41,163 nt of DNA, taken from IMG/VR virus record IMGVR_UViG_3300036852_000130, positions 1 through 41,163 of that record. One strand, written 5' to 3'. The notes below the pieces were generated by a model. It saw only the letters and a program-made list of their open reading frames with translations, was not told the origin of the DNA and ran no database searches. This DNA is from a virus. The translations under genes and the position numbers were made by a program. This document shows, in pieces, positions 1 through 17,334 of the stretch (its first letter is position 1; every line of letters starts with the position of its first letter).

Positions 1-127
1 GACCATCGGCGGGGTGACCTATCGATTGGAGCAATGCACTTCGAGTACCACGCTCTCGGGCGACATTCTGATCCGCGTCAGCAATGCCACGGTCACGCCG
101 CCGAACACTGACGCGTGCTTTACGTTC
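1..127. repeat. Terminal direct repeat, left copy
   Basis: These 127 bases are identical to the last 127 bases of the window (41037-41163). The reading frame of the tail gene runs through the repeat without interruption when the ends are joined. An exact 127-bp overlap is what an assembler with a k-mer of 127 leaves on a circular contig, so I read it as closure of a circular or circularly permuted genome rather than a biological terminal repeat. Confidence 0.95.
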
Positions 128-307
128 GTCAGACTCACGGGAGACTTCGTTGGGGCTAACGACACCCCCAAGGTCTTCCTGCGCTCCGCCAACTACGTCA
201 CCAACACCGGCACCACGCCGAACGGCAGGCCGATGCGACTGTGGCAGATCAATGTGGCGGGTTCGGAAATGGTCAACGGGAACAATTACGGGTTTGAACT
301 TGGCTAA
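2..307 (+). CDS. C-terminal part of distal tail protein (N-terminus at 40702-41163)
   Basis: This is the 3' portion of a gene that starts at 40702 and crosses the contig join. The joined protein has 213 residues. The stop TAA is at 305-307, and the next gene starts 16 bases later at 324. The part here is rich in T, N, V and G and looks like a beta-structured domain, as in distal tail or fibre-tip proteins. Its place directly after the long fibre gene supports a host-contact or fibre-associated role. I do not recognise the family, so the role comes from position and composition. Confidence 0.7.
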   Translation, partial: TIGGVTYRLEQCTSSTTLSGDILIRVSNATVTPPNTDACFTFVRLTGDFVGANDTPKVFLRSANYVTNTGTTPNGRPMRLWQINVAGSEMVNGNNYGFELG

Positions 308-323
308 CTAGAGAGGAATCCTT

Positions 324-578
324 ATGCAAAACGGTCACGATCACGCGCGCGCGGCCGGCGCGCCAATGCAGATGCAGGTAAACCCGCAGCAGGCGGCGCA
401 GTTCGCGTTGACGTTCCTGGCGCGGGCCGACATGAAGCCCGCCGAACGCGACGCCTACGCGGTCGCGGAAGGCTTGCTCAACGCGATTCTTTCCGGGCAA
501 GTAGTGCTCGCCCCGCCGGCCCCGCCCGCCGTCGCGTCCGAGGCTCCCGGGCCCGAAAGCGCTGCGCCGGCTCAGTGA
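324..578 (+). CDS. Small hypothetical protein at the end of the late operon
   Basis: An 84-residue protein preceded by GAGAGGAA, a good ribosome binding site 8 bases before the ATG. It begins with a Q/M-rich stretch (MQMQVNPQQAAQ), continues as one predicted amphipathic helix with acidic residues (about 25-58) and ends in a Pro/Ala-rich tail. No membrane segment or known domain is seen. It is the last gene of the rightward structural operon and overlaps the convergent leftward gene at 572-883 by 7 bases. A small virion or fibre-accessory protein is possible but unproven. Confidence 0.6.
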   Translation: MQNGHDHARAAGAPMQMQVNPQQAAQFALTFLARADMKPAERDAYAVAEGLLNAILSGQVVLAPPAPPAVASEAPGPESAAPAQ

Positions 579-883
579 TCGGAACGGATCGCGTGCAGTG
601 ACGGCGGGGCCGCTGGCCATTCGGCCCGTGCCGCGATGTCGCCGAGCGCCAGAGCCGCGCGCTCGTCGCGAACCTGCGGCAGCGCGGCGATGGCGCGGCG
701 GCGGATCATTTCGAGACGCAGCCTGCCGGCGCGGGCCTCGGCTCGCGCCGCGCGTAGCTCGATCAGCAAGCGATCCACGGACGCACGCACGGCCCGCGCT
801 TCGGCCGCTGCGGCGTCCGCGCGCGCGCGCTGCGCGATCTCTCGCCCGTTGTCGTTCGTGATGTTCACTGCAGTTCGGGACAT
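572..883 (-). CDS. Ala/Arg-rich helical small protein
   Basis: A 103-residue protein beginning MSRTAVNITND. Residues 15-75 are almost wholly A, R, E and L in a heptad-like pattern, suggesting one long coiled coil. No catalytic motif is seen. No clear Shine-Dalgarno precedes the ATG at 883, and a leftward terminator ends only 16 bases upstream, so expression would need antitermination, readthrough or an unseen promoter. The opposite strand also carries open frames, but they are arginine-rich and look like shadows. It converges on the late operon, so it could be antisense to its end. Function unknown. Confidence 0.5.
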   Translation of the reverse strand: MSRTAVNITNDNGREIAQRARADAAAAEARAVRASVDRLLIELRAARAEARAGRLRLEMIRRRAIAALPQVRDERAALALGDIAARAEWPAAPPSLHAIRSDH

Positions 884-898
884 GGGTCCGCCTGTGCC

Positions 899-927
899 AA
901 AAAAAACCCGCGCCTTTCGACGCGGGT
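899..927 (-). terminator. Rho-independent terminator of the leftward operon
   Basis: On the minus strand ACCCGCG pairs with CGCGGGT (7 bp, 8-base loop), followed directly by an eight-base T tract (A tract at 899-906 on the plus strand). It lies after the secreted-protein gene that ends at 992 and before the gene at 883. Only about 6 bases separate it from the 934-950 operator. Confidence 0.85.
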
Positions 928-933
928 GGATAG

Positions 934-950
934 TAGGACAGATTGTCCTA
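934..950. promoter_or_regulatory. Operator copy 1, TAGGACA-N3-TGTCCTA
   Basis: This 17-bp palindrome reads TAGGACAGATTGTCCTA and matches the copies at 3855 and 17862 except for the central three bases. On the minus strand its final TA continues into TACTAT, a fair -10 hexamer, matching TAAAAT at the second copy. That is the arrangement expected if a dimeric repressor covers the promoter spacer. Confidence 0.75.
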
Positions 951-991
951 TTTTCGCCAGTCAGCCCATTCCGCCGACCGCATTAGGCGCC

Positions 992-1546
992 CTACGGGCG
1001 GTTTTCAGCGGCAGGCCCTTGCGTGGATGCCACCCCTGTTTCGGCGGGCAGCGCGAGCGGGGCTGTGGCGTCGCGCAGTAGTTTCCACTCCGCGAACGTC
1101 ACCTTGCACCCGACGCGCTCGGGCACGCGCGCCCCGGCGACGTTTTTTTCCAGCGTCTTGTGGCACCACTCGACCCGCACCGCGCCGCCCGTCGACTGGG
1201 ACAGCCGCATGACGCGACGCTTAAACCAAACGTGGCCGTTGCTGGCCGTCATGGTCTCGCGGATGTGCCCGACGATTAACCCATCATCGCTGTGCGCGAC
1301 GCCGAACGGCGTGCGCGCTTCGATCTCTCCGGCGATCTCGCGGACAATCTCCGAATCCTGCTCGACGAGAAACGCGCGCAGGCGCCGCTGCGCCTCGGCG
1401 AGCGTCACGCCCGCCGGCATTTCCGTCACCAGCACGCCGCGCGCGGCTTTGTAGTCGCGTTGCAGGGATACGTCGGTCTCTCCCGCGTTCGCGCAGTTCA
1501 TGAAAATCACCGCGACCAGCGCGGCGAAAAGTTTTTGAGTCGTCAT
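992..1546 (-). CDS. Exported protein of the early leftward operon
   Basis: A 184-residue protein. ATG 1546 follows AGGAGACAGGAC, the same leader sequence as the first gene of the operon (3803). Residues 1-22 form a Sec signal peptide (MTTQKLFAALVAVIFMNCANA then GETD), with an Ala-x-Ala cleavage site after ANA. The mature part is soluble and has two cysteines (WCHKT, GCKVTF) that could form a disulfide, so I expect it in the periplasm. No known domain is recognised. A secreted protein in an early or lysogenic operon may be a lysogenic-conversion or superinfection-exclusion factor; that is inference. Confidence 0.75.
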   Translation of the reverse strand: MTTQKLFAALVAVIFMNCANAGETDVSLQRDYKAARGVLVTEMPAGVTLAEAQRRLRAFLVEQDSEIVREIAGEIEARTPFGVAHSDDGLIVGHIRETMTASNGHVWFKRRVMRLSQSTGGAVRVEWCHKTLEKNVAGARVPERVGCKVTFAEWKLLRDATAPLALPAETGVASTQGPAAENRP

Positions 1547-1575
1547 AGTCCTGTCTCCTGAGGTAGATAGAAAAG

Positions 1576-1956
1576 TCATTTGCCGTTGCTGCGGCGTTTC
1601 ACTTCGCGTTCCACGCGACGCAGCGTTTTCATGGTCCGTCGATAGGCCGCCGAAGTTGGCGCGAGGGTCTGCAGTTCAAGGGTTGCCTCGCCCGCCATGC
1701 GCTGCAGCGCACGGGTGGGGATATCGCGGAAATGATTCGCGGGAATCGCCTCCGCTTCCACGGCGCGCGTCACACATTCCACCGCGAATTGCACCGGGTA
1801 GGCGAACCCTGACTCTCCGGTGACGTAGCGGCGAAACGTGCGGGCGTCCACGCCGATGCGTTCGGCCATTTCCGCCTGGGCGAGCTGCGCGCGTTCGACC
1901 AGCGCGCGCAGGTAGGCGGGATCATTCTTGAACTGCGCGGGGTTAGGCGTGCTCAC
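1576..1956 (-). CDS. XRE-like helix-turn-helix DNA-binding protein
   Basis: A 126-residue protein. I chose GTG 1956 because it overlaps the stop of the upstream gene as GTGA, as most neighbours do; longer readings only translate that gene in another frame. Residues 16-45 (ERAQLAQAEMAERIGVDART then FRRYVTGES) fit a lambda-repressor/XRE helix-turn-helix. The rest is helical and ends in basic residues. It has no protease or dimerisation domain like CI. As the fifth gene of the leftward operon it could be a Cro-like autoregulator. Binding to the TAGGACA operators is possible but not shown. Confidence 0.75.
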   Translation of the reverse strand: MSTPNPAQFKNDPAYLRALVERAQLAQAEMAERIGVDARTFRRYVTGESGFAYPVQFAVECVTRAVEAEAIPANHFRDIPTRALQRMAGEATLELQTLAPTSAAYRRTMKTLRRVEREVKRRSNGK

Positions 1957-2498
1957 GACTGCACCGCCTGCGCCTTTTCCAGTCGCTTGAGCGCCGCGCG
2001 AATCTTGCGCATTGCCGTCCGCGCGCGCTTCTCTCGCGTCTGCCAGCGCGCGAGCCGTGCCGTCAGATTCGCGCGGCGTGCCTCGCGCTTCTCCGATAGC
2101 GTGAGACTGGCGGGCTCGGCGGGCTTGAGTCTCCCGCCGAGCCACCCCTGCGCGAGCACATACGCCGCCATTTCGCGTTCAAGCCGCGCGTGGGAGGGAT
2201 GATGCGGGGTCAATTTCGGGTGCCGATGGCGGAACACGGCATGCGAAACGTCATGCACCAATCGCTCCCAGCCCCTGTGCAGCGTGATATCGCCGCGACG
2301 CGACGCCCAGCAGCGGCGCGCCTTGGTCGGCATCTTCGCCGGCACGAGCTGATGCGGGGCGCCATGCTTCACGGCGCCGAAGTGGCGCGTAAGTCGCCGC
2401 GCCGCGCGCAGCGCTTCGACCATCGAGAGCGGCGGGCGCGAAACGCCCGCCCATATCTCGCCCACGGACTGATAGTTGCCTGTGTGCGCGTCCGCCAT
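1953..2498 (-). CDS. Putative metallopeptidase-like protein with HDxxH motif
   Basis: A 181-residue protein. ATG 2498 is preceded by GGAGGA (minus strand), 7-12 bases upstream. The middle holds WERLVHDVSHAVFRHRHP, followed by a second His cluster and HARLEREMA. The HDVSH element with a downstream E resembles the HExxH zinc site of metallopeptidases, but with D for the usual E. The C-terminal 60 residues are strongly basic and helical (ARWQTREKRARTAMRKIR), probably binding nucleic acid. The gene starts two bases after the previous stop. Peptidase activity is inference, since the HExxH glutamate is absent. Confidence 0.65.
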   Translation of the reverse strand: MADAHTGNYQSVGEIWAGVSRPPLSMVEALRAARRLTRHFGAVKHGAPHQLVPAKMPTKARRCWASRRGDITLHRGWERLVHDVSHAVFRHRHPKLTPHHPSHARLEREMAAYVLAQGWLGGRLKPAEPASLTLSEKREARRANLTARLARWQTREKRARTAMRKIRAALKRLEKAQAVQS

Positions 2499-2500
2499 GA

Positions 2501-2929
2501 TCAGTCCTCCCCCGGCAGCATGATCGTGAGCACGGGCTCGCCCGCGTCGCCCGGCCCCACGTGCAGGCACAGTTCCGTTTTCACGGGCTTGCGGGCGCGC
2601 CCCTCGGGGGGCGTGCGCATCACATGGAACACCAGACGCACGTTAGAGCCTTGCCGCCCGTCTCGGGCTGCGGCGCGCATGCGATAGAAGGCCATGTTAA
2701 CCACGTCACTGAGCCGTCCTCCCTCGTCCTGGCCCGTGCCCTTGGTCTTGTTGTGCGCGTCGGTCCACGCGATGCAATCCGACCACGCCGCCGCCGTCAT
2801 GGCGACGGGCCAGCGGAAGCCCGCTTCACGCGCGCGCTCCGTGACATCGATCAGAAAGCCGTCCGCGATTCCCTGCGCGCGGGTGTAGACCGAAATCGGC
2901 TCGCCGAAAAACTCGGTGGCGTCGTTCAT
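2501..2929 (-). CDS. DUF6573-like protein
   Basis: A 142-residue protein whose ATG 2929 overlaps the upstream stop as ATGA. The N-terminus (ISVYTRAQGIADGFLIDVTE, then REAGFRWPVAMTAAAW) matches the widespread plasmid and phage family I know as DUF6573, whose members share YTRAQAIxDG and DVTxxAREAG blocks. The C-terminal half (VRLVFHVMRTPP, LHVGPGDAGEPVLTIMLPGED) is a likely beta sheet. The family has no established biochemical role and is common among early or anti-defence genes of mobile elements. Third gene of the operon starting at 3803. Confidence 0.75.
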   Translation of the reverse strand: MNDATEFFGEPISVYTRAQGIADGFLIDVTERAREAGFRWPVAMTAAAWSDCIAWTDAHNKTKGTGQDEGGRLSDVVNMAFYRMRAAARDGRQGSNVRLVFHVMRTPPEGRARKPVKTELCLHVGPGDAGEPVLTIMLPGED

Positions 2930-3387
2930 GACTTCACCGCCTTGCCGGCGAGAATTGCGCGCATGCGGATCGTCATCGGCAGTAGCTGTCTCTCCATGCC
3001 GCGCAAGTGCGCGACCGATTCCAGGGCAAAGCATGCCGAGGGGATCAGAATGGCCAGCTCGTCAGCGTGCGCGTGGATGTGTTCGATCATCGCGCGCAAC
3101 TTTTCCGCCATCGCCGCATCCTCGCCCGCCTGCGACCCGACCCGCGCCAGCAGCGTCTTGGCGTCGTCATTCAGCGTGCCGCCGCGCGCGATGATGCGCG
3201 CGCAGCGTTCGCGAATTTCCACCGCGTGGGGCGCCAAGTCGCCGCCCTCCTGATGCACGTTGAAAATGCGGGCGATCTCCCAGCATTCATCGCACAGTCC
3301 GATGGTGTCGGCGCCGCCGTAAGGCGTGCGATGTCCGCAGGCCGTGCATACGTACACGCCGCGCCCGCCACGTTTCGCGCGACTCAT
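2926..3387 (-). CDS. Zinc-ribbon protein of the early leftward operon
   Basis: A 153-residue protein starting MSRAKRGGRGVYV; ATG 3387 overlaps the upstream stop as ATGA. CTACGHRTP with CDECWE about 18 residues later gives a CxxC-x(n)-CxxC zinc ribbon at residues 13-38. The remainder is helical, with a long alpha stretch (ERCARIIARGGTLNDDAKT, then AEKLRAMIEHIHAHADELAI) that may dimerise. The basic N-terminus and zinc ribbon suggest nucleic-acid or protein binding. It shares operon and likely regulation with its neighbours. The precise function is unknown. Confidence 0.75.
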   Translation of the reverse strand: MSRAKRGGRGVYVCTACGHRTPYGGADTIGLCDECWEIARIFNVHQEGGDLAPHAVEIRERCARIIARGGTLNDDAKTLLARVGSQAGEDAAMAEKLRAMIEHIHAHADELAILIPSACFALESVAHLRGMERQLLPMTIRMRAILAGKAVKS

Positions 3388-3803
3388 GAGCGCACCTTGA
3401 CGATGCGCCGCTGTTCGGCGCTCCACGCGCCCAGCAACTTGTCGGCGATCTCAGCATCGGTCAGCGCGTCCAGGTCCACCGAGCACGTGCCACCCGCGCG
3501 CAGAATCAAAACGCACTTGTCACTGCCGCCCGTGGCGAAGTTGCGCCCGCGAAAATCGCGGTGGGTGTGACGCCAAATAATTTTCAGCGCCTCCTTGCGC
3601 GTCATCGTCGCGGCGGGATTCGCCACCGCGAATGACGCCGCCTGGGCGGGTTCGGCTTCGATGATCTCGGGCACGTCGACTGTCAGCAGTTCGACCGTAT
3701 AGCCTCGAATTCGCCACTCCGTGCGCGTGCGCTCCGCGCGCGCCTCATCCTCGCCGTTGTAAACGGTTGATCCGTTCGCAGTCACTTCGTAAAGGGTTCG
3801 CAT
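3384..3803 (-). CDS. First gene of the early leftward operon, unknown function
   Basis: A 139-residue protein. ATG 3803 is preceded by GGAGACAGGACAA, giving a clear ribosome binding site. The N-terminus (MRTLYEVTANGSTVYNGEDE, then RTEWRIRGYTVELL) looks like a small alpha/beta domain that grasps variable names or arguments in many phage hypotheticals. The second half, from TRKEALKIIWRHTHRDFRGR to SVDLDALTDAEI, is also compact. No known motif is found. It is the first gene after the operator at 3855 and so would be the first expressed when repression is lifted. Confidence 0.7.
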   Translation of the reverse strand: MRTLYEVTANGSTVYNGEDEARAERTRTEWRIRGYTVELLTVDVPEIIEAEPAQAASFAVANPAATMTRKEALKIIWRHTHRDFRGRNFATGGSDKCVLILRAGGTCSVDLDALTDAEIADKLLGAWSAEQRRIVKVRS

Positions 3804-3822
3804 TTGTCCTGTCTCCGTTGAG

Positions 3823-3843
3823 TGTCGGAAAGGATTTCCGACA
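3823..3843. promoter_or_regulatory. Perfect 9-bp inverted repeat in the leftward leader
   Basis: TGTCGGAAA-GGA-TTTCCGACA lies between the operator at 3855 and the ATG at 3803. In the leftward mRNA it would be a 9-bp hairpin with a 3-base loop, ending about 11 bases before the GGAGACAGG ribosome binding region. It could be an RNA hairpin that shapes translation of the first gene or a second protein operator. No T tract follows, so it is not a terminator. Confidence 0.7.
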
Positions 3844-3854
3844 GACAGCTATTT

Positions 3855-3871
3855 TAGGACAAATTGTCCTA
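3855..3871 (-). promoter_or_regulatory. Leftward early promoter with operator copy 2
   Basis: The palindrome TAGGACAAATTGTCCTA is identical to the copy at 17862 and differs from the one at 934 by one base. Read leftward it continues as TGTCCTAAAAT, placing a -10-like TAAAAT at the operator edge. The -35 is weak, so an activator may be needed; a CRP-like palindrome lies about 80 bp further upstream at 3949-3964. This promoter should drive the six genes from 3803 to 992. Confidence 0.75.
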
Positions 3872-3948
3872 TGACCCGTGACTGAAAGCCATGGTCCCTC
3901 AGTGAGTTAGGCGCGCGAAAATGCGAAAAATGCAGGGTTTTCGAGGGG

Positions 3949-3964
3949 TGTGACGCTCGTCACA
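3949..3964. promoter_or_regulatory. CRP-like palindrome TGTGA-N6-TCACA
   Basis: TGTGACGCTCGTCACA fits the CRP/Vfr core TGTGA-N6-TCACA exactly. It overlaps the end of the excisionase gene and lies upstream of the leftward promoter at 3855. It could alternatively be a hairpin behind the excisionase gene, but no T tract follows on the minus strand. Confidence 0.4.
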
Positions 3965-4274
3965 TCGGGGGCGGGCTTGAGACGTTGCTAGGCATCGCGC
4001 GCGGCTGACGTTTGCGCGCGCGTTTCGGACCCATCTCTAGCAAGGCACGAATCTGTCTGGCTGTCCAAAAATTGGTGTGCCCAACTTTGTGAGGCGCGGG
4101 CAACTGACCGGAAGCGATGCCGCGATACCAGTGCGAGCGCGACATGGGCACGTATTGCAATACCTCGGCGAGTGTCAGCCAAGTGATCCCGGGTAGATCG
4201 GGCGGGAAGGATCGAACCTGCAGCGACACGCGCGAACGCGGCGCACGCTTGGGGGAAGTCTTGGCGGGTGTCAT
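3960..4274 (-). CDS. AlpA/Xis-like helix-turn-helix protein (candidate excisionase)
   Basis: A 104-residue protein. I chose ATG 4274 because GGAG lies 9 bases upstream. An earlier in-frame ATG at 4283 has no such site. Residues 27-75 (TWLTLAEVLQYVPMSRSHWY, RGIASGQLPAPHKVG, then FWTARQIRALLE) are a classic AlpA/winged helix-turn-helix of the kind used by excisionases and prophage regulators. The C-terminus is basic. It lies immediately downstream of the integrase on the same strand, as recombination directionality factors often do, but a terminator separates them. Confidence 0.75.
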   Translation of the reverse strand: MTPAKTSPKRAPRSRVSLQVRSFPPDLPGITWLTLAEVLQYVPMSRSHWYRGIASGQLPAPHKVGHTNFWTARQIRALLEMGPKRARKRQPRAMPSNVSSPPPM

Positions 4275-4394: not shown

Positions 4395-5819
4395 TTACCC
4401 ATTCATGTGTGCGGGGTGACGATTGACCTGCGCGGTGGCGAATGCCGCCGCCATGTCCACGCGCGAGGCCGGCAACTGCGCCGCGTTTCCAGCCGCGAGC
4501 ACCGCGTCAATCTCATCCGCCCACCACTGCATCAGGCGCGCGCGTTCCGCCAAGAGCAGCCCACGGTGGGAGCCGTCTTTATCGCGCGTGTAGTGCGCGC
4601 GCACGCCCTCGGTTAGCTTGTGATCCTGCTGGAATTCAAGCGCGTGCTCCTCGGCGCGCGTGACGATATAGCGCGTGTATGCCGTGGTGGCGAACAGCGC
4701 GCGGAACCCGTGCACGGTGATGGCGCCGCGTTCGGCTGTCGTGCCGTCCCAGCCCAGCGCGCGCAGCCGCTGCAGCCACGTCCCCTCGCTGATCGGGTGG
4801 CACTCAGTGTGCCCGCGACCCATGAACCCGGGGAAAAGTAGCGGCGTCTGGCCCGTCACGGACTGCAGTTCGCGCAGTAGCTTGACGACGGTCGACGCCA
4901 GCGGCACGCGATACGGGGCATATGCCTTGCCGCGCATGTCCGCGCGCTTCTCGGTCGTGCGTTGCTTCGTGCCCTCGGTGAACGCTGGCACGATCATCGT
5001 GGCGCCGTGCGGGCCTTCCCACTGAATCCAGTCCCAGCGCGCGGTGCGCAGAATCGACGGGCGGACGGTGAGATACGGCAGCATTTGCAGCGCGAGCTGG
5101 GTGGCGCGTTCGCCCTGACGAACTGCGCGCATGCTCGACACGTCCGCGAAGTACAGCGGCAACTGATCGAGCTGCAGCGCTTCCCAGTGCTGCGAATCGC
5201 GCGGCGTCAGTTTCTCCACCACGCGATGCGCGGGATTCTCGCCACGGTGATGACCCTCGGCGCGCGCGTATTCGTAAAGTTTTTCCAGCGCGTGGGCGAT
5301 CTCGCGGGCGAATGATGGGCTCCGCGTGATCTCAAGGCCCCGGCAGAATTTCAGGACCGCCGGCATATCGAGCGCGTTCAACTTCTCGCGCATCAGCGGG
5401 CGCAAGTCATCGCTGGTCAGGATGCTGTGCGTCCGCGCGCCGTAGGCAGGGCCGACGCGCTGCGCGAACACGGGGAACCAGAGCAGGAATTCCGCGCCCA
5501 GCGTCGCCGAATTCTCGGCGCGGCGTTTCAGTTGCGCCTTGCGAATGCACTGGCCTTGGGCGAGCTGTGACTGCGCGACCTCGAATGCCGCCCACGCCTG
5601 CGCCAGCGTCAACTTGCCGAACTTGCCCAGGGTGTGCGTCTTGGCGACGCCTGCGGCGTTGCGGTAGTTGAATCGAAACGACTTGGCCCCCGTGGGCGAC
5701 ACGAACACGAACAGACCCCGCCCGAGAAAGTTGCGCCATGGCTTGTGGCGCGTCTCAAGGGCGCGGATGTCCTGATCGGTCAGGCAGGGAACGGACTTGC
5801 GAACACTTGCGGATGTCAT
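4395..5819 (-). CDS. int: Tyrosine site-specific integrase, P4-like
   Basis: A 474-residue protein. ATG 5819 has GAGGAG 9 bases upstream; the frame stays open to 5957 but without a site there. Residues 10-85 form the arm-type DNA-binding domain (DUF4102-like: FVFVSPTGAKSFRFNYR, then HTLGKFGKLTLAQA). The catalytic domain spans about 210-435, with Arg at TVRPSIL (R253), the box II H370-x-x-R373 (HGFRALFA), nucleophile Tyr410 in AHYTR, and the C-terminal RLMQWWADEID typical of this family. It integrates and, with a directionality factor, excises the prophage, usually at a tRNA or similar site. All key residues are present, so it should be active. Confidence 0.95.
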   Translation of the reverse strand: MTSASVRKSVPCLTDQDIRALETRHKPWRNFLGRGLFVFVSPTGAKSFRFNYRNAAGVAKTHTLGKFGKLTLAQAWAAFEVAQSQLAQGQCIRKAQLKRRAENSATLGAEFLLWFPVFAQRVGPAYGARTHSILTSDDLRPLMREKLNALDMPAVLKFCRGLEITRSPSFAREIAHALEKLYEYARAEGHHRGENPAHRVVEKLTPRDSQHWEALQLDQLPLYFADVSSMRAVRQGERATQLALQMLPYLTVRPSILRTARWDWIQWEGPHGATMIVPAFTEGTKQRTTEKRADMRGKAYAPYRVPLASTVVKLLRELQSVTGQTPLLFPGFMGRGHTECHPISEGTWLQRLRALGWDGTTAERGAITVHGFRALFATTAYTRYIVTRAEEHALEFQQDHKLTEGVRAHYTRDKDGSHRGLLLAERARLMQWWADEIDAVLAAGNAAQLPASRVDMAAAFATAQVNRHPAHMNG

Positions 5820-6334
5820 TGTCGAAATCTCCTCGGTATGGGTATCGGGGCTCCGGGAATTCCTACTTTTCGTGGGATTCCCAGAGTACGAAACAGCTAC
5901 GCGGGGGACCAACTGACACTCAAGACTGACGTAAGTCACTGAGGGCGTTACAATCAACCGCGTGGCTGATCGAACGCATAGGATGACGATTGCTTATGGG
6001 GATTGCAATCATTTGTCCGGGTAGTGTAGACGGATCAACTGGTTAGCCGACCCTCAGTAGGAATCCCCACGCCCCCCGATTCCTATTCTTATGAGACTCA
6101 CTGAGACGCGCTGAGATTCAGCAAGACTCAGGGACACATTATATATGGCGCAGGCGTCGGCTGGCAGTTACGATCCGACCCGCCCCCCCAGCATCGCCCG
6201 CGTGCTGCGCACTGCGGGAAGCGTCGGGGGTGCGCGTCAAACGATCTCAGAACGCACGTGGGCGACGATGCCCGCCACCCCCGACTTCCGCGCTGGGGTC
6301 GTTCTGACGCGCCCTAAAACGCGAGGGACTGCCA
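5820..6334. promoter_or_regulatory. Regulatory and possible attachment region between integrase and rightward genes
   Basis: A 515-bp stretch with no convincing gene. It holds the integrase ribosome binding site (5829-5834), a GATTGCAATC palindrome (6001-6010), the inverted sequences GTGGGATTCC (near 5872) and GGAATCCCCAC (near 6061) that could be integrase arm sites, and the CTGAGAC iterons at 6093-6130. An AT-rich TATATAT (6140-6146) would suit a rightward -10. I see no tRNA 3' end that would mark attP. Frames open from 6145 to 6330 lack a ribosome binding site. Confidence 0.55.
6093..6130. repeat. CTGAGAC-type iterons, about 10-bp period, site 1
   Basis: Four direct units, GAGACTCA, CTGAGACGCG, CTGAGATTCA and AAGACTCA, are spaced by about 10 bases (starts at 6093, 6101, 6111, 6123), one helical turn. 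They end 10 bases before a TATATAT element. A matching array is at 12181-12210. Confidence 0.65.
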
Positions 6335-6625
6335 TTGACGCCCGAGAACTGCGAACACTGCGGCGAGCCCGTCCTGCCGGCCGAACGCGCCGACAATTCC
6401 CAGCCGTTCCACCACGAATGCATGTTCCGCGTGCTGATGGGATCGGTCGCGCACGTGCTGCGCCGCTGCTCGTGTTTCGTCCCGGGCTCCGAAGAATCGG
6501 ACCCGCCCTTCATGAGCAAACGCAACGCGGCACGCGCCGCGATCCAGACCCAGCGGCTGGTGGATGCGCTGCTCGATCACAACGCGGCAAACCGTGAGGA
6601 ACCCACATGCCCGAAGTCCCATTGA
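6335..6625 (+). CDS. Cys/His-rich phage hypothetical protein
   Basis: A 96-residue protein. The start is TTG 6335 with GAGGG 8 bases upstream. CEHCGEPVLP, FHHEC and the CSCF segment form a probable zinc-binding fold over residues 6-50, followed by a conserved-looking DPPFMSKRNAARAAI. This pattern (CxHCGEPVLP, then HHEC, then CSCxxGxEEDPP) occurs in many unrelated temperate phages as a protein of unknown role. It overlaps the next gene by 19 bases and is first in the rightward cluster behind the iteron region. Confidence 0.7.
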   Translation: MTPENCEHCGEPVLPAERADNSQPFHHECMFRVLMGSVAHVLRRCSCFVPGSEESDPPFMSKRNAARAAIQTQRLVDALLDHNAANREEPTCPKSH

Positions 6626-6810
6626 CGACCGACGAGGCGCGGCGCCACCGCGAATTCTGCGAAGCGGCGATCCTGCGCCAGTTGCACGAGCTGCAGAAAA
6701 TCACCGGGCTCGACATCGCCCGCGTGGAAGTGCTGGTGATCGTGGAAGCCGAATTGCACGAGGAACCGAAGCGCGTGCCGTTCTCCGTGCGCATCGATCT
6801 CGCCGTATGA
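6607..6810 (+). CDS. Small hypothetical protein upstream of HigA-like regulator
   Basis: A 67-residue protein with GAGGAA before ATG 6607. It is helix then strand: an acidic helix (EARRHREFCEAAILRQLHEL) followed by beta-like VEVLVIVEAELHEEPKRVPF. It stops in an ATGA overlap with the HigA-like gene, the position where a HigB or RelE toxin would normally be. It is too short for HigB (about 90 residues) and lacks its basic catalytic residues. I do not recognise it; a novel partner of the antitoxin-like protein is possible. Confidence 0.6.
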   Translation: MPEVPLTTDEARRHREFCEAAILRQLHELQKITGLDIARVEVLVIVEAELHEEPKRVPFSVRIDLAV

Positions 6811-7136
6811 CCAGCCCGAAGCGTGACCCACGGCGGCGCCCGACACATCCGGGCGAGATTCTGCGCGAGGACATGCTGCCCGCGCTCGGGTGGACGCAAG
6901 AACAATTCGCCGCACGTCTCGGGGTTACGCGCGTCACCGTCGCGCGGCTGCTGCTGGAACACGCGGCGATGAGCCCGACGATGGCACTGCGGCTGAATCG
7001 GTTGCTGGGCACGCCCGCCGAAGTGTGGATGGCAATGCAATCCGAGTGCGACATGTGGGACGCACGCCAGAGCGCCGCGACGTTGAACGCCATTCGTCCG
7101 CTGACGGCGCGCGAGCGCGGGCGCCTCCGAAAGTGA
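6807..7136 (+). CDS. HigA/VapI-family XRE regulator (solitary antitoxin-like)
   Basis: A 109-residue protein; ATG 6807 overlaps the upstream stop. RRRPTHPGEILREDMLPALG followed by WTQEQFAARLGVTRVTVARL is the signature of HigA-type antitoxins (HPGEIL, then an XRE helix-turn-helix), at residues 8-50. The following GTPAEVWMAMQSECDMWDA also fits the family. In HigBA modules HigA neutralises the toxin and represses its own promoter. No HigB-like toxin is adjacent, so this copy may act as a regulator or neutralise host toxins. Family assignment is firm; the role is inference. Confidence 0.85.
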   Translation: MTSPKRDPRRRPTHPGEILREDMLPALGWTQEQFAARLGVTRVTVARLLLEHAAMSPTMALRLNRLLGTPAEVWMAMQSECDMWDARQSAATLNAIRPLTARERGRLRK

Positions 7137-7417
7137 ACACCAGGGATTGTATTGCGCGTCGGCGCGCCGCGCCTGTGGATATCTTGCGGGCGTCCCGTGA
7201 GCTGTTTAACGCAACCAGAATTTGCAGTCTTGTTAGGCGTACTCTCTAGCTCTTACGCGCGCGGAGAAAAAGGTTCCCGCGCGCGCGCGCCCGGAGTCTC
7301 AGGGAATACTCCGTAGATACCTCTCACGTATGTAAATACCTGTAGTAGCGGACGCACTTTCGGTGGACAACCGCGAAACGTGCGGCGATGCACACACAAG
7401 ATATGGGGGTAGATAGC
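7137..7417 (+). promoter_or_regulatory. Intergenic regulatory stretch
   Basis: A 281-bp stretch without a convincing gene. It contains an alternating GC run at 7278-7291, GGAGT/ACTCC arms (7293-7312) around a GAGTCTCAG that mirrors the iteron sequence, and an imperfect hairpin (about 7352-7384, CGCAC-TTTCG paired with CGAAA-C-GTGCG). It ends in the CTATCTA-class heptamer TAGATAG at 7410, between the GGGGG ribosome binding site and the start codon of the next gene. Promoters are likely here but none is clear. Confidence 0.45.
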
Positions 7418-12167: not shown

Positions 12168-12337
12168 GTCATATCTCTCCTTGAGACTGTCTGAGACGAA
12201 CTGAGACTACCTAACTTCGGAAGATACCCCCAACCAACTGAGAGTCAAGCAATTCGTGCCCTAGCTAGGCAAATGGATAAACGTAGTTTGGTGATCGCCT
12301 ACACGCCCCTAAGGACCGCAGGGGTCGGAGCATTCCT
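12168..12337. promoter_or_regulatory. Divergent control region between the regulator unit and the VRR-NUC gene
   Basis: A 170-bp region carrying three CTGAGAC iterons (12182-12208), CCAACTGAGAGTCAAG (12233-12248) that closely resembles CCAACTGACACTCAAG at 5909-5924, and the palindrome CCTAGCTAGG (12260-12269). A GGAG site (12327-12330) precedes TTG 12338. Both flanking operons start here, so it is a likely genetic-switch region. Confidence 0.6.
12182..12208. repeat. CTGAGAC iterons, 10-bp period, site 2
   Basis: TTGAGACTGT, CTGAGACGAA and CTGAGACTAC follow one another with exact 10-base spacing from 12181. They share the core (C/T)TGAGAC with the array at 6093-6130. They lie in the leader of the leftward regulator unit, next to its ribosome binding site. 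Confidence 0.65.
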
Positions 12338-13023: not shown

Positions 13024-13442
13024 ATAAGCGCCGCTTCGATCTACTCGACCAGAAAGGCAAGACCGTGATCTCGCTCGATCTCGTGCGCGAAAGCATGGTG
13101 ACGCGCAACGCGACGGACGGCGGCGGGTGCGCGCACATCGGCGTGGAGGTGGACCCGATCAAGGCCACGCTCGAATGCGTTGCATGCAAGGCGCAACTGT
13201 CGCCAACGCAGTGGATTTATCAGCTCATCGAATACTGGGATCACGTCGTGCACATGCACGACAGCGCGAACCGAAGCCGACGCGCAATGGAAATGCAGGC
13301 ACAGATGTTAGAGAGGAAGTCGCGCTGCAAGTGCGATCACTGTGGGCGGGTGACGCGCGTGCGCCTGCCTCGTTTGAACTACGCGCAGTTGCGGTCGCTC
13401 GACCAGCCAGCCGAGCGACCGCCCACAAACCCCAAGGAGTGA
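13020..13442 (+). CDS. Phage zinc-finger protein with two Cys clusters
   Basis: A 140-residue protein from GTG 13020 (GTGA overlap). CAHIGVEVDPIKATLECVAC forms the first metal site and CKCDHCGRV (residue 107 onward) the second. Between them lies a helical region (QWIYQLIEYWDHVVHMHDSA). The layout, a histidine-bearing finger, long helix and a terminal CxCxxC, recurs in many phages near recombination nucleases. It probably binds nucleic acid; the activity is not known. Confidence 0.7.
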   Translation: MNKRRFDLLDQKGKTVISLDLVRESMVTRNATDGGGCAHIGVEVDPIKATLECVACKAQLSPTQWIYQLIEYWDHVVHMHDSANRSRRAMEMQAQMLERKSRCKCDHCGRVTRVRLPRLNYAQLRSLDQPAERPPTNPKE

Positions 13443-13446
13443 ATTT

Positions 13447-14142
13447 ATGGACTCGTCAGCACCGAGCAGCGCGAAGCGTACCAGACCAGCCGCCGACGCG
13501 GCAGACCGCATCGCACCATCACGAGTGAAGATCGAACCGCCGAAGCTGCAGACCGTCACGCTCAATATCCTCGGCACGTCGCAGCTCGTGCAAAACCGTT
13601 TCAGCGCCAAGGCACGCGCCAAGATGGAAGCGACCCAGCGCCAGGGCTCGACCGCCAAGGCCCGCAAGGCGCGCCCGCCGCGCGAATTCGAGGCGGACTA
13701 CAAAGCCGCCATGTACGTGAGCGAGAAAGGCTGGCACGGCATGCCGTGCACGGCATTCAAGGCGGCGATGGTCAGCGCCTGCCGGCTAACCGATGCATCG
13801 ATGGAACTCGGCAAAATCAGTTTGTTTGTTGAGCCAGATGGGCTCGACGCCACGGACGGCACGGAACTGGTGAAGATCGAAGGCAAGCCGACGCAGCGCA
13901 TCGACCACGTGCGCCACATGATGACCACCAACCTCGCGGTGCGCGCCGCGTTCTGGCCGTGGAAGGCGAAGCTCCGTATCACGTTCGATTCCGAGCGCTT
14001 CCAACTGTCCGACGTGATCAATCTACTGATGCGCGCGGGACTGCAGGTTGGCATCGGCGAAGGCCGCCCGGGCTCCAAGCGTAGTGTCGGCATGGGCTGG
14101 GGGCGCTTCTCCGTCGAAACCAAGGGAGTCGTCGCCGCATGA
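13447..14142 (+). CDS. Conserved phage protein with RAMP-like glycine loop
   Basis: A 231-residue protein with AAGGAG 8 bases before the ATG. Residues 36-60 (TVTLNILGTSQLVQNRFSAK) begin an alpha/beta fold; residues 96-118 include GMPCTAFKAAMVSACRL. Near the C-terminus VGIGEGRPGSKRSVGMGWGR (201-220) is a Gly-rich loop of the GxGxxxxxG(x)nGxGx type found in RAMP/Cas5-Cas7 RNA-binding proteins. The family is common in phages, but no activity is settled as far as I know. Nucleic-acid binding is a fair inference given the VRR-NUC neighbour; a CRISPR link is not claimed. Confidence 0.75.
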   Translation: MDSSAPSSAKRTRPAADAADRIAPSRVKIEPPKLQTVTLNILGTSQLVQNRFSAKARAKMEATQRQGSTAKARKARPPREFEADYKAAMYVSEKGWHGMPCTAFKAAMVSACRLTDASMELGKISLFVEPDGLDATDGTELVKIEGKPTQRIDHVRHMMTTNLAVRAAFWPWKAKLRITFDSERFQLSDVINLLMRAGLQVGIGEGRPGSKRSVGMGWGRFSVETKGVVAA

Positions 14143-14639
14143 AAGCGCTGAGCCGCCGCGCGCAAGCGAGATTGACGGAGCTGGAAAGCATCCGGGAGAA
14201 AAACCCGCGCGGCGTGCTCACACCTCGTGCCGTGGTCGACGCCGCGCGTTCGCGCACCAGTCACTTGCACGATTGTTTTCAGTGGGACGATACGCGCGCG
14301 GCCGATGAGTATCGGCTATATCAGGCGCGCCACGTCATCGCAGAATTCGTGGTGTACCTGGACGGCGGCACCAAGGGTGATCCGGTGGTGCCGTTCTATC
14401 TATCGCTGCCGAATGATCGAAAGATAGCCGGCGGCGGCTATCGGCCCACGACCACCGTCATGAACAACCGGCAACTAAGGAGGCAACTACTTCAAGAGAT
14501 TCGCACCGACTTCGATTCGTTTCATTCGCGCTGGGCCGGGGTCTCGATTCTCATGCGAGAACTGTCGCCGGTGCTCAAGGCGCACGAGACATTTCGCCAA
14601 GAATATCTGGACCCGCTGCCGATGAGAAAGAGTAGATAG
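14139..14639 (+). CDS. Conserved phage hypothetical (HDCFQWDD family)
   Basis: A 166-residue protein, ATG overlapping the previous stop. VLTPRAVVDAARSRTSHLHD, FQWDDTRAADEYRLYQARHV and a downstream QEIRTDFDSFHSRWAGV resemble a family seen in phages of Actinobacteria and Proteobacteria. All members lack an assigned role. F-Y-L-S is coded with the heptamer at 14396, and its stop TAG is the end of another heptamer (14633-14639). The CGGCAGGCA array begins right after it. Confidence 0.7.
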   Translation: MKALSRRAQARLTELESIREKNPRGVLTPRAVVDAARSRTSHLHDCFQWDDTRAADEYRLYQARHVIAEFVVYLDGGTKGDPVVPFYLSLPNDRKIAGGGYRPTTTVMNNRQLRRQLLQEIRTDFDSFHSRWAGVSILMRELSPVLKAHETFRQEYLDPLPMRKSR

Positions 14640-15473
14640 ATGACACAAGGCGTGGCACCGTGGACGTCGTTCGGCCTGCCATCGCGCGTCGCAGCGCGGC
14701 AGGCATGGCGGCGTTCGGCTTTCCCGGATATGCGACGCTCGGTGAACTTCGGACGCGCATGGTACGGCAGGCAAGGTGGCGTATGGTTCTCTCCGTTCGT
14801 CAATCCTCCGCGCACAGCGGCGGGGTGTCGCACGGCAGGCGCCATCAGGTTGCGTGCGGCTGGGTTGGTCAGGCGAATTAAGGTCCGCTTGGGCCCGGCA
14901 GGCATCGTTTGGCAAGACACCGCCCGGTCAGTTGATTCCCGGCAAGGCAGGCAAAGTCAGGCCCAGCCATCGAGGCAAGACGTGGTGGTGCAAGGCGAGG
15001 TCACGTATGGCGTTGCCCGGCAGGCAGCGTCCGATCTCGCATGGTGCGGCCAATCTCGGTCGGGTAGCGCGCGACCTGATAGCGCACGGCATAGCAGGCA
15101 CGTTCAGGGGCGTTGCGGTATGACAAGGAAAGGCGCGGAACGACGTGGCCCGGCGAGGTCTGGCAGGCGCGGATTCACCCGGCTTGGTCGGGCTTCGATA
15201 TGCACGACTGGGCATGGCACTGGGCAGTTAGGCCCGGCAGGCACGATTCGGCATCGCCCAGCACGATTCGTCATCGATAGGCGGGGTACGGCAGGCAACG
15301 CAGCGCACGGCTCGATCAGGCAAGGCGTGGTCTCGTTCGCAGGCACGGCTAGTTCGGGTCGAGCTTTGACGGGCAGTGCATCACCCGGCACGGCAGGCTT
15401 GGTGTGGTGTTCTTGGTCATGCACGGCAGCCCACGCCTTGGTGTGGTGTAGTTCGGCACAGCAGGCACGGTGA
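14640..15473 (+). CDS. Open frame over the CGGCAGGCA array (doubtful gene)
   Basis: The frame is open for 277 codons. Its ATG follows the previous stop directly (TAG-ATG) and its TGA overlaps GTG 15470, a possible start of the ParB-like gene, so its limits look gene-like. AGAAAGAG lies 8 bases before the ATG. The product is of low complexity (R, G, A, S, W and Q rich) and the repeated motif falls in all three frames (CGG-CAG-GCA, GGC-AGG-CA, ACG-GCA-GGC), so the repeat is conserved as nucleic acid, not as protein. I favour a DNA or RNA element; a translated low-complexity protein cannot be excluded. Confidence 0.25.
   Translation: MTQGVAPWTSFGLPSRVAARQAWRRSAFPDMRRSVNFGRAWYGRQGGVWFSPFVNPPRTAAGCRTAGAIRLRAAGLVRRIKVRLGPAGIVWQDTARSVDSRQGRQSQAQPSRQDVVVQGEVTYGVARQAASDLAWCGQSRSGSARPDSARHSRHVQGRCGMTRKGAERRGPARSGRRGFTRLGRASICTTGHGTGQLGPAGTIRHRPARFVIDRRGTAGNAAHGSIRQGVVSFAGTASSGRALTGSASPGTAGLVWCSWSCTAAHALVWCSSAQQAR
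14697..15467 (+). repeat. Array of 13 degenerate CGGCAGGCA units
   Basis: Units start at 14697, 14765, 14833, 14896, 14945, 15018, 15092, 15161, 15235, 15289, 15337, 15391 and 15459, spaced 48-74 bases apart (often 68-74). The consensus is CGGCAGGCA, most often followed by a further [A/C/T][A/C]G; GGCATGG, GGCAAGG and GTTCGG words recur between units. The intervening sequences are not copies of each other, so this is neither a simple tandem repeat nor CRISPR. The last unit ends next to the ParB-like start codon. Confidence 0.75.
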
Positions 15474-15478
15474 ACACA

Positions 15479-16180
15479 ATGACCACTGAGATTCGCAAAC
15501 CCGAAAAGCGCCCGCCGGCTCCCGGCGGGCGCGGCGCCCCGATGCCGACCAATCGCCGCGTGAAGATGCGAAAGCAGCCACCCACGCCTGCCACGCGTGA
15601 GAAGTTCCGCGAACGGTCGGCGGAAGAAACCAGTTGGCCCGCCTCGGAGACCGAGCTACGCGATATCAACGCAATCGCCCCTTACCCGCGAAACCCTCGG
15701 CTGCATGGTGAGGGGCAAATCGAGCAAATCGCTTCGAGCATCAAACGGTGGGGCTTTACGATTCCGCTGCTCGTGGATGAGGCGGGCCAATTGATCGCAG
15801 GCCACGCACGGCACGAGGCCGCGAAACGTCTCGACCTGAAACGCGTGCCCGTGATGGTCGCGCGCGGATGGAGCGAGGCGCAGAAGCGCGCCTATGTGAT
15901 CGCCGACAACCAGCTCGCCAGCCTAAGTTCGTGGGACCGGGAGTCGCTGGCCTACCACATGCAGCTCATGGACGATTCCGAACTAGCCAAGGCCATCGGT
16001 TTCAGCGACGCGGACCTCAAGTCGCTGTGCGACGCCGATGCCGTGATGAACGAACGGCAGAACGAGACCGTGGGCGGCAGCCGTTTCATGCTGCTGCTCG
16101 AATTCGACGATGAGCCAACCTTGCAAGCGCACTTTGACGAGCTGCGCGGGCGCGGGCTGCGCGTCAAGGTGATGACGTGA
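15479..16180 (+). CDS. ParB/Srx-fold phage protein
   Basis: A 233-residue protein. ATG 15479 has GGTGA 5 bases upstream; GTG 15470 is an alternative start. After a basic Pro-rich leader (residues 1-55), INAIAPYPRNPRLHGEGQIE, SIKRWGFTIPLLVDEAGQLI and GHARHEAA (108-115) are the conserved boxes of the ParB N-terminal domain, which binds CTP or other nucleotides. The following WSEAQKRAYVIADNQLA is typical of phage ParB-like proteins that precede DNA methylases. No KorB/ParB helix-turn-helix is seen. It ends in a GTGA overlap with the ABC-GNAT gene, so the two probably act together. Confidence 0.9.
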   Translation: MTTEIRKPEKRPPAPGGRGAPMPTNRRVKMRKQPPTPATREKFRERSAEETSWPASETELRDINAIAPYPRNPRLHGEGQIEQIASSIKRWGFTIPLLVDEAGQLIAGHARHEAAKRLDLKRVPVMVARGWSEAQKRAYVIADNQLASLSSWDRESLAYHMQLMDDSELAKAIGFSDADLKSLCDADAVMNERQNETVGGSRFMLLLEFDDEPTLQAHFDELRGRGLRVKVMT

Positions 16181-17334
16181 CGGCCGCGCCGCTCAAGGCG
16201 TACCGCGTCCGCCTGGAATCGCCGGTAGCCGATTCGTTCCGGTGCACGTGCGCGGCGAATGCGCTCGACATCGACCAGAAGAAAAAGTCCGTGCACCAGC
16301 TCGACGTGCGGGCCGACATTGAAAGCCCGTTCAACGTGGGCGCGATTGTCGGCGCCTCGGGATCGGGCAAGAGCACGCTGGCCCGTTCGATCTATGGCGC
16401 GGACGCGCTGAGTACGCGACTCGATCCCGCGCGCCCGATCATCGACCAACTACCGAAGGAATGGACCTACGACCAGTGCGCCGCCGCGCTTTCGGGCGTC
16501 GGGCTTACCTCCGTGCCGTGCTGGATTCGACCGGCTCACACACTGTCGACCGGGCAGGCAGCGCGCGCGGAGGCAGCCCTGCAGATGGCGCACCTTGTCG
16601 ATGGCGTGACCGTCATTGACGAATGGACCAGCGTGGTTGATCGCACCGTGGCCAAGGTCATGAGCCATTGCGTGCAGAAGTTCGCACGCTCGGCTAACAA
16701 ACAGGTGGTGCTCATTTGCTGCCACTATGACGTGCTCGACTGGCTCAACCCCGATTGGGTCATCGACTGCAATAAGCAGGCGTTCACCGACCGGAGGGAA
16801 CTTCGTCGGGGCTTCGAGCGCGCAGAGCGATTGCGCTTCGACATCCGGCGCGTTGACCGGCGAACCTGGGCCTATTTCAGTAAGTATCACTATCTAACCG
16901 ATTCGCTACCCGGCGGCAGCATCGAATGCTTCGGCGTGTTCCACGGTCGGGATCAGGTCGGCTTTCAGTGTTTCGCTCACTACGTGCCGCATCGCCGTGG
17001 CACGGTGCGACGCAAGCAAATGCACAGCAATCGAATCGTCATCCACCCCGACTATGCGGGGCTCGGGCTGGGCATCCGCGTGGTCAATGCCACATCGTGG
17101 CTGATGGCCCAGCGTGGGTTCGATGTGCGCATCAAGTACAGCTCGGTCCCCGTGCACCTCGCCATGCGCAAGTATCGGTGCTGGGAATTGCTCGACGTGA
17201 GCCGGGCCACGCATCAGATATTCGGGGCCAAGATGGAGAGGCGCACGGGCTTTCGCCTCGACGTAAAGACCTACAGCTACCGCTTCCGCCCTCAGGCGTA
17301 TGATCCCGTGGCCGATGGTGCCACGCTGCAGTAG
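16177..17334 (+). CDS. ABC-type ATPase fused to a GNAT-like acyltransferase
   Basis: A 385-residue protein from GTG 16177. Residues 59-67 (GASGSGKST) are Walker A, LSTGQ (123-127) the ABC signature, GVTVIDE (143-149) Walker B with catalytic Glu, and CCHYD (181-185) the switch histidine region. No membrane segments, so it is a soluble ABC ATPase. Residues 225-365 form a GNAT fold, with SNRIVIHPDYAGLGLGIRVV (284-303) as the acyl-CoA loop. The pairing with ParB recalls phage cassettes proposed to modify DNA bases (compare the GNAT-like Mom of phage Mu). Substrate and target are unknown; base modification is inference. All ATPase motifs are intact. Confidence 0.85.
   Translation: MTAAPLKAYRVRLESPVADSFRCTCAANALDIDQKKKSVHQLDVRADIESPFNVGAIVGASGSGKSTLARSIYGADALSTRLDPARPIIDQLPKEWTYDQCAAALSGVGLTSVPCWIRPAHTLSTGQAARAEAALQMAHLVDGVTVIDEWTSVVDRTVAKVMSHCVQKFARSANKQVVLICCHYDVLDWLNPDWVIDCNKQAFTDRRELRRGFERAERLRFDIRRVDRRTWAYFSKYHYLTDSLPGGSIECFGVFHGRDQVGFQCFAHYVPHRRGTVRRKQMHSNRIVIHPDYAGLGLGIRVVNATSWLMAQRGFDVRIKYSSVPVHLAMRKYRCWELLDVSRATHQIFGAKMERRTGFRLDVKTYSYRFRPQAYDPVADGATLQ

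Follow-up and report, generated by a model that had tools for sequence, protein, structure and literature searches.

The stretch of viral DNA analysed here, called the window throughout (41,163 nucleotides, IMG/VR record IMGVR_UViG_3300036852_000130), carries between positions 14640 and 15473 an array in which one short word keeps recurring, and this raises the question of what such an array is for. A first-pass annotation made from the letters alone had considered a ParB-like loading array, a structured RNA, a diversified protein-coding repeat or a DNA modification target, and had added that no function was settled, which was correct until April 2026. It was then that a single preprint (PMC13142463; bioRxiv 2026.04.26.720920) described VIPR (Viral Interference Programmable Repeat), made of a phage-borne RAMP protein, a vap gene and vrRNAs, and put it forward as a possible ancestor of CRISPR. 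We propose, with high confidence, that the array in the window is the guide-RNA bank of such a phage-borne VIPR system, holding about 13 guides.

A degenerate five-base grammar in the array

The word [G/A/C]GCAGGC was found at 13 sites (14698, 14766, 14834, 14897, 14946, 15019, 15093, 15162, 15236, 15290, 15338, 15392 and 15460) that are spaced 48-74 nt apart, just as first described, and GGCAGGCA occurred seven times in the array versus once in the remaining window on that strand. The bases between the words had been taken for unrelated sequence, but this view had to be abandoned: autocorrelation in the array stood 6.3 sd (lag 5) and 6.7 sd (lag 10) above that of the remaining window, with no lag-3 (codon-like) periodicity, and a degenerate pentanucleotide repeat, GGYNN, was found to underlie the whole array on the + strand. 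A register model that allows GGYNN repeats and, now and then, a 4-nt unit gave the + strand of the array a score of 161, whereas its dinucleotide shuffles scored 41 +/- 8 (z = 14), which bears out the earlier impression that the array is too regular for chance; the opposite strand scored 28 and the best window elsewhere 56. Over 147 five-base repeats, position 1 was G in 67% and position 2 was G in 76%, position 3 was C or T in 93%, and positions 4-5 were close to even.

Parsing the array with this model gave 13 units of 48-74 nt with 10-15 repeats each. A unit ends with a 4-nt slip that is followed by GGC, forming a GGCA/GGC junction (the stroke marks the unit boundary) in which GGCA is replaced twice by AGCA and once by CGCA; CGGCAGGCA is punctuation only, the junction that joins consecutive guides. 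About half of the units contain an additional one-base slip. Repeat starts are distributed equally over the three codon phases (58/56/53), in agreement with the earlier remark that the word moves through all three frames. The limits of the array are exact, since it sets in at the upstream stop codon (14639) and, as had been noticed, ends against the start of the ParB-like gene (15470). The array and its proposed guide units, which all come from the unit parse, are listed below.

14640-15473, + strand: probable vrRNA (guide RNA) array, GGYNN, 13 units punctuated by GGCA/GGC (register z = 14, position frequencies, unit parse)
14649-14701, + strand: guide unit 1, 53 nt, 11 repeats, 1 internal slip
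14702-14769, + strand: guide unit 2, 68 nt, 14 repeats, 1 internal slip
14770-14837, + strand: guide unit 3, 68 nt, 1 internal slip
14838-14900, + strand: guide unit 4, 63 nt, 1 internal slip
14901-14949, + strand: guide unit 5, 49 nt
14950-15022, + strand: guide unit 6, 73 nt, 1 internal slip; convincing target not found
15023-15096, + strand: guide unit 7, 74 nt, 14 NN plus AGCA; predicted target, once decoded, in recT of contig L360, 26/28, 1-nt skip
15097-15165, + strand: guide unit 8, 69 nt; convincing target not found
15166-15239, + strand: guide unit 9, 74 nt; target not found
15240-15293, + strand: guide unit 10, 54 nt; convincing target not found
15294-15341, + strand: guide unit 11, 48 nt, extra slip at the unit end
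15342-15395, + strand: guide unit 12, 54 nt
15396-15463, + strand: guide unit 13, 68 nt, 1 internal slip

A promoter/terminator scan returned nothing on the array strand, and blastn with the array region of the window gave zero matches in phages because this array is too degenerate. Among the functions first suggested, the structured RNA came closest, in that a functional RNA is indeed what we propose, but this RNA would act as a guide and not through its fold, and no Rfam family was found for the array. For a DNA-modification target, no association was found in its support.

A Vipr homologue and a candidate accessory gene beside the array

Two genes precede the array in the window.

13447-14142, + strand: vipr gene, phrog_4652, 231 aa, RAMP/Cas7-like (profile match to PDB 36pp; Csm3/Cas7 fold)
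14139-14639, + strand: vap (vipr-accessory) candidate, phrog_15946, 166 aa (homologue at 71 of 80 Vipr loci)

The two families to which they belong (E = 5.8e-21 for phrog_4652 and E = 2e-19 for phrog_15946) are unannotated in PHROGs; here they are tied to Vipr and to a vap candidate. A profile of 44 phrog_4652 relatives matched one PDB sequence, that of 36pp, the "SUSP1 Vipr protein" (E = 7.9e-26). Since the window protein alone gave only a weak match to 36pp in a single-sequence search (E = 0.2), its identification as Vipr comes from the profile. The AlphaFold model of this protein (pLDDT 88.9, pTM 0.80) was matched by Foldseek to Csm3/Cas7 RAMP subunits (best E = 5.3e-6, probability 1.0), and 36pp was not among the Foldseek matches listed for it (structure library up to April 2026). 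A C-terminal glycine-rich loop, AGxQVGIGEGRP...GMGWGxF, is conserved with invariant G/R residues, and the vipr frame of the window is intact, with every core residue present; the published Vipr is RAMP-like with an RRM core and a glycine-rich loop (PMC13142463). The RAMP fold and the 36pp match therefore place the locus in VIPR, and the phrog_4652 protein is expected to bind guide RNAs. For the phrog_15946 model (pLDDT 89.0), the best Foldseek matches were forkhead winged-helix domains; because all of them had E >= 0.29, this likeness is not significant, and the protein may at most weakly resemble winged-helix/DNA-binding folds.

The association between the array and these genes was then found to extend well beyond the window. 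When viral contigs were scanned for six GGCAN units in a row, 111 stretches were returned, many of which comprise several arrays that are intergenic, on the strand of the genes and often 3-15 bases past a stop codon. A phrog_4652 homologue was found at 50 of these 111 stretches (many being truncated contigs), usually directly beside the array, and nearly all the arrays at those 50 stretches share the strand of the phrog_4652 gene. In a set of 50,697 phage records, blastn with a clean array retrieved 32 records, while tblastn with phrog_4652 retrieved 33, namely the same 32 Mycobacterium and Gordonia records plus Cyanophage Cy-LDV1, in which inspection by eye revealed two arrays flanking its phrog_15946 gene on both sides. 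Similarly, at 80 loci found by the Vipr protein alone, an adjacent array was present in 78 and phrog_15946 in 71. Both array-less exceptions look technical: at L317 the strand-specific call failed and the near-identical locus L316 has an array at the same place, and at L348 the contig ends directly past vipr. Altogether, the array goes with its two upstream genes, phrog_4652 and phrog_15946. In the clean arrays of other phages, the distance from one GGCAGGC word to the next was 5n+4 in 255 of 265 intervals.

A few arrays outside this pattern were also seen. (GGCAN)n arrays are frequent in bacterial genomes (Streptomyces and others; L153-L272), with a Vipr homologue in only 2 of 120, and these are mostly something other than VIPR. 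One viral contig (L070) carries five GGCAN arrays within 10 kb, lacks a recognisable Vipr homologue and possibly represents a divergent system. In another (L116, positions 4557-7387), several arrays alternate with copies of a GGGATACTTTGTG... sequence that resembles the 3' tail of guides in other VIPR types.

In published VIPR systems, vrRNAs consist of 9-16 tandem YNNGG repeats in which GGY is conserved and NN is variable; the NN dinucleotides read double-stranded DNA by base pairing and pass over one nucleotide between them (the 1-nt skip), in most cases a codon wobble position. The system represses competing phages and satellites (PMC13142463). The locus is minimal, with two genes and a guide array in the noncoding space flanking vipr, and seven types have been published that differ in array architecture, with accessory genes vap1-6 (PMC13142463). 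The window shares with these systems a RAMP-like Vipr homologue, a small adjacent gene that is a candidate accessory gene, GGY/NN units of the published size and a phage-borne location, the array flanking vipr in the order vipr-vap-array. It also shares the NN code with a 1-nt skip, which we recovered for one unit (unit 7) of the five searched, as a decoded target that is wobble-aligned and sits in a phage-like, probably competing element. In contrast, the guides of the window stand head to tail and tail-less, with a 4-nt junction, and the GG positions are looser than in the other arrays examined. In type II VIPR (SUSP1 / P. fulva), every repeat tract is followed by a structured 3' tail that does not vary (PMC13142463); since this tail is absent from the window, where GGCA alone separates consecutive units, we did not file the array as type II. 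The tail-less punctuated array, the loose GG positions, the predicted target and the fully open frame described below are new details.

With class 1 CRISPR-Cas (type III Csm3/Cas7), the locus has the protein fold and the RNA-guided principle in common, whereas its code is noncontiguous and no repeat-spacer array, cas1/cas2 or other subunit was seen in the window. CRISPR-Cas itself, with near-identical repeats, unique spacers and cas genes beyond one RAMP, does not fit: a repeat-spacer structure is absent, and no cas gene was detected among the nine window proteins scanned, the direct PADLOC scan covering the Vipr family.

By analogy with the published systems, the vipr-vap-array operon would be read in one direction and the array transcript would be cut into about 13 vrRNAs of 48-74 nt (PMC13142463). 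Each vrRNA would then be coated by the RAMP-like Vipr, the protein holding the GGY triplets and leaving the NN dinucleotides exposed, and these may pair with double-stranded DNA with one target base between dinucleotides left unread (PMC13142463). Such bound complexes could block the transcription of genes from competing phages or satellites, presumably with help from the accessory protein (PMC13142463). This proposed member of VIPR was reached independently, from an oddity in raw sequence. The array-RAMP gene linkage is seen in the same 32 phage records from either side, and what the window contributes is a tail-less bank of guides arranged head to tail, in which the junctions follow a simple rule.

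Guide decoding and a predicted target in recT

The cores of five units (6, 7, 8, 9 and 10) were decoded with a 1-nt skip and searched in viral contigs. The core of unit 7 (NN series AG CC CT AT GC CA TC CG AG GC CT AG AC AT) gave six matches, one of them in the contig L360 (IMGVR_UViG_3300018476_000382), where the flanking bases also matched at 10 of 12 positions, bringing the total to 26/28 with two mismatches. Counted empirically, flanks matching at 10/12 or better turn up at 2e-5 per position, the second-highest total for unit 7 over 6.4 million positions was 20/28, and versions of unit 7 with a 0-, 2- or 3-nt skip reached only 16-18/28 in L360. The site lies inside the RecT gene of L360 (Pfam E = 3.4e-23), on the antisense strand, over the codons for SVLRALRECAMSGL, and all the skipped bases fall at third codon (wobble) positions of recT, as published for other guides (PMC13142463).

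L360 (positions 1-4087) is a compact 4-kb soil contig that carries an integrase, an AlpA-like gene, recT and a prohead protease with no terminase genes between them, and its integrase and prohead protease are 64% and 67% identical, respectively, to those of the window phage. This fragment resembles part of a satellite element related to the window phage, and it comes from a related phage or phage-like element that probably competes with it. We thus predict, from the match in sequence, that the target of unit 7 is recT of L360, which would be a natural target in a related phage-like element and would lie outside the clades for which the main text of PMC13142463 describes targets.

The other searches returned nothing comparable. 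In viral contigs, unit 9 had zero matches, unit 8 had one core match with mismatched flanks that we took as chance, and units 6 and 10 had 22 and 18 core matches, respectively, with flanks at chance level. Unit 7 had no match in 399 genomes of one order, with up to 3 mismatches allowed. An all-against-all decoding of 426 guides versus the collected loci gave an excess at no skip length; loci without vipr contribute simple repeats that dominated one such decoding.

A first alternative to a working guide bank, which we consider rather unlikely, is that the array is a decayed remnant, in other words a VIPR guide bank that is non-functional in this phage and whose sequence is drifting. Such a remnant would fit the scaffold, which has only 67-76% G at the GG positions and in which about half of the units carry an additional one-base slip, when the clean arrays of other phages hold the 5n+4 rule almost throughout (255/265); on these grounds some of the array may be in decay. 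However, unit 7 decodes at 26/28 even with GG missing from about half of its triplets, so that the code positions have not drifted along with the scaffold; position 3 is still 93% pyrimidine, and the vipr frame is unbroken and retains every core residue.

It appears more improbable still that, in a true VIPR guide bank, the recT match of unit 7 arose by chance and the guides aim elsewhere or at nothing. The two mismatches in the site would fit such a view, as would the fact that a single match came from five units searched while the other core matches were chance-like. It would nevertheless require a flank with a frequency of 2e-5 per candidate to have turned up among only six unit 7 candidates, and the codon-wobble alignment and the kinship between L360 and the window phage to be independent coincidences on top of it. 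If the array is read as a VIPR guide bank with a unit directed at recT, it offers a second kind of system in which the code of the guides, their junction and the idea of inter-phage warfare can be tested directly.

The open frame across the array and the neighbouring cassette

A 277-codon open frame runs across the array; it begins with an ATG right past the vap stop and extends as far as the ParB start, with 5 and 9 stops in the remaining two frames. When the NN pairs were shuffled within the scaffold, this frame was open in only 0.2% of the trials (P = 0.002), with 5.9 stops expected. Four of 56 other arrays stand out likewise (L295, L297, L300 and L308), and in two of them (L295, 2746-3315; L297, 4622-5320) a continuous frame starts from an ATG just past the vipr stop; several homologous arrays have stops in every frame. 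With all arrays pooled, 76 minimum stops were seen versus 99 expected, and since this deficit is modest, we regard the open frame as a lead and not as a result. A tentative and on balance unlikely idea is that some VIPR banks are continuous translatable frames, in which ribosomes would cross the array from the accessory gene (or vipr) to the next gene, the RNA doubling as guide precursor, and in which the GG scaffold would be relaxed with only the pyrimidine and the NN code held. VIPR guide arrays would account for many low-complexity hypothetical frames in phage genomes.

The diversified protein-coding repeat of the first-pass annotation goes further, in that it takes the 277-codon frame for a genuine gene, encoding a low-complexity protein, and the repeat for a coding one. 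We regard this as very improbable. It would explain why the frame is open throughout in the window, which only 0.2% of the shuffles reproduced, and why L295 and L297 have similar frames, but GC by codon position is flat in the array (0.63/0.69/0.65, versus about 0.6/0.5/0.8 in the neighbouring genes), the repeats use all three phases and no lag-3 signal accompanies them. Moreover, the product of the frame has no family in Pfam or PHROGs, and what is common to the relatives is the five-base grammar, not a peptide. We therefore rejected the coding repeat, one frame being open nonetheless.

The gene at the other end of the array was examined through its own relatives. Two contigs (L002 and L003) carry the ParB/ABC-GNAT cassette with 94% nucleotide identity to the window, and their blastn blocks end at 13384 and restart at 15524, with about 327 other bp between, which shows that the array and its two preceding genes form a module that is absent from near relatives.

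13385-15523, + strand: vipr-vap-array module, present in the window and replaced by about 327 bp in L002 and L003 (blastn block ends)

These two are among 40 viral contigs with an ABC-GNAT gene, 37 of which also have a ParB-like gene, and the co-occurrence check proposed with the loading idea found the array in none of the 40; a ParB relative is present at only 5 of the 111 array loci and 3 of the 80 Vipr loci. A binding or loading site of the parS kind for the adjacent ParB-like protein is thus hardly credible: ParB adjoins the array in this single genome, but the array does not accompany it in relatives (0/40 loci), and near relatives retain ParB without the array. ParB and ABC-GNAT are mere neighbours of the array.

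The ParB-like gene overlapping the ABC-ATPase/GNAT fusion (phrog_11143; window 15470-17334) is a widespread conserved cassette in its own right, parts of which are annotated in Streptococcus and Oenococcus phages, probably wrongly, as siderophore transporter and DNA methylase. Elsewhere in the window, two short arrays of near-identical 10-mers (TGAGACTCAC / TGAGACTAAC), with about 2.8 copies each, lie 6 kb apart at 6092-6120 and 12182-12209 and are possible operator or iteron sites.
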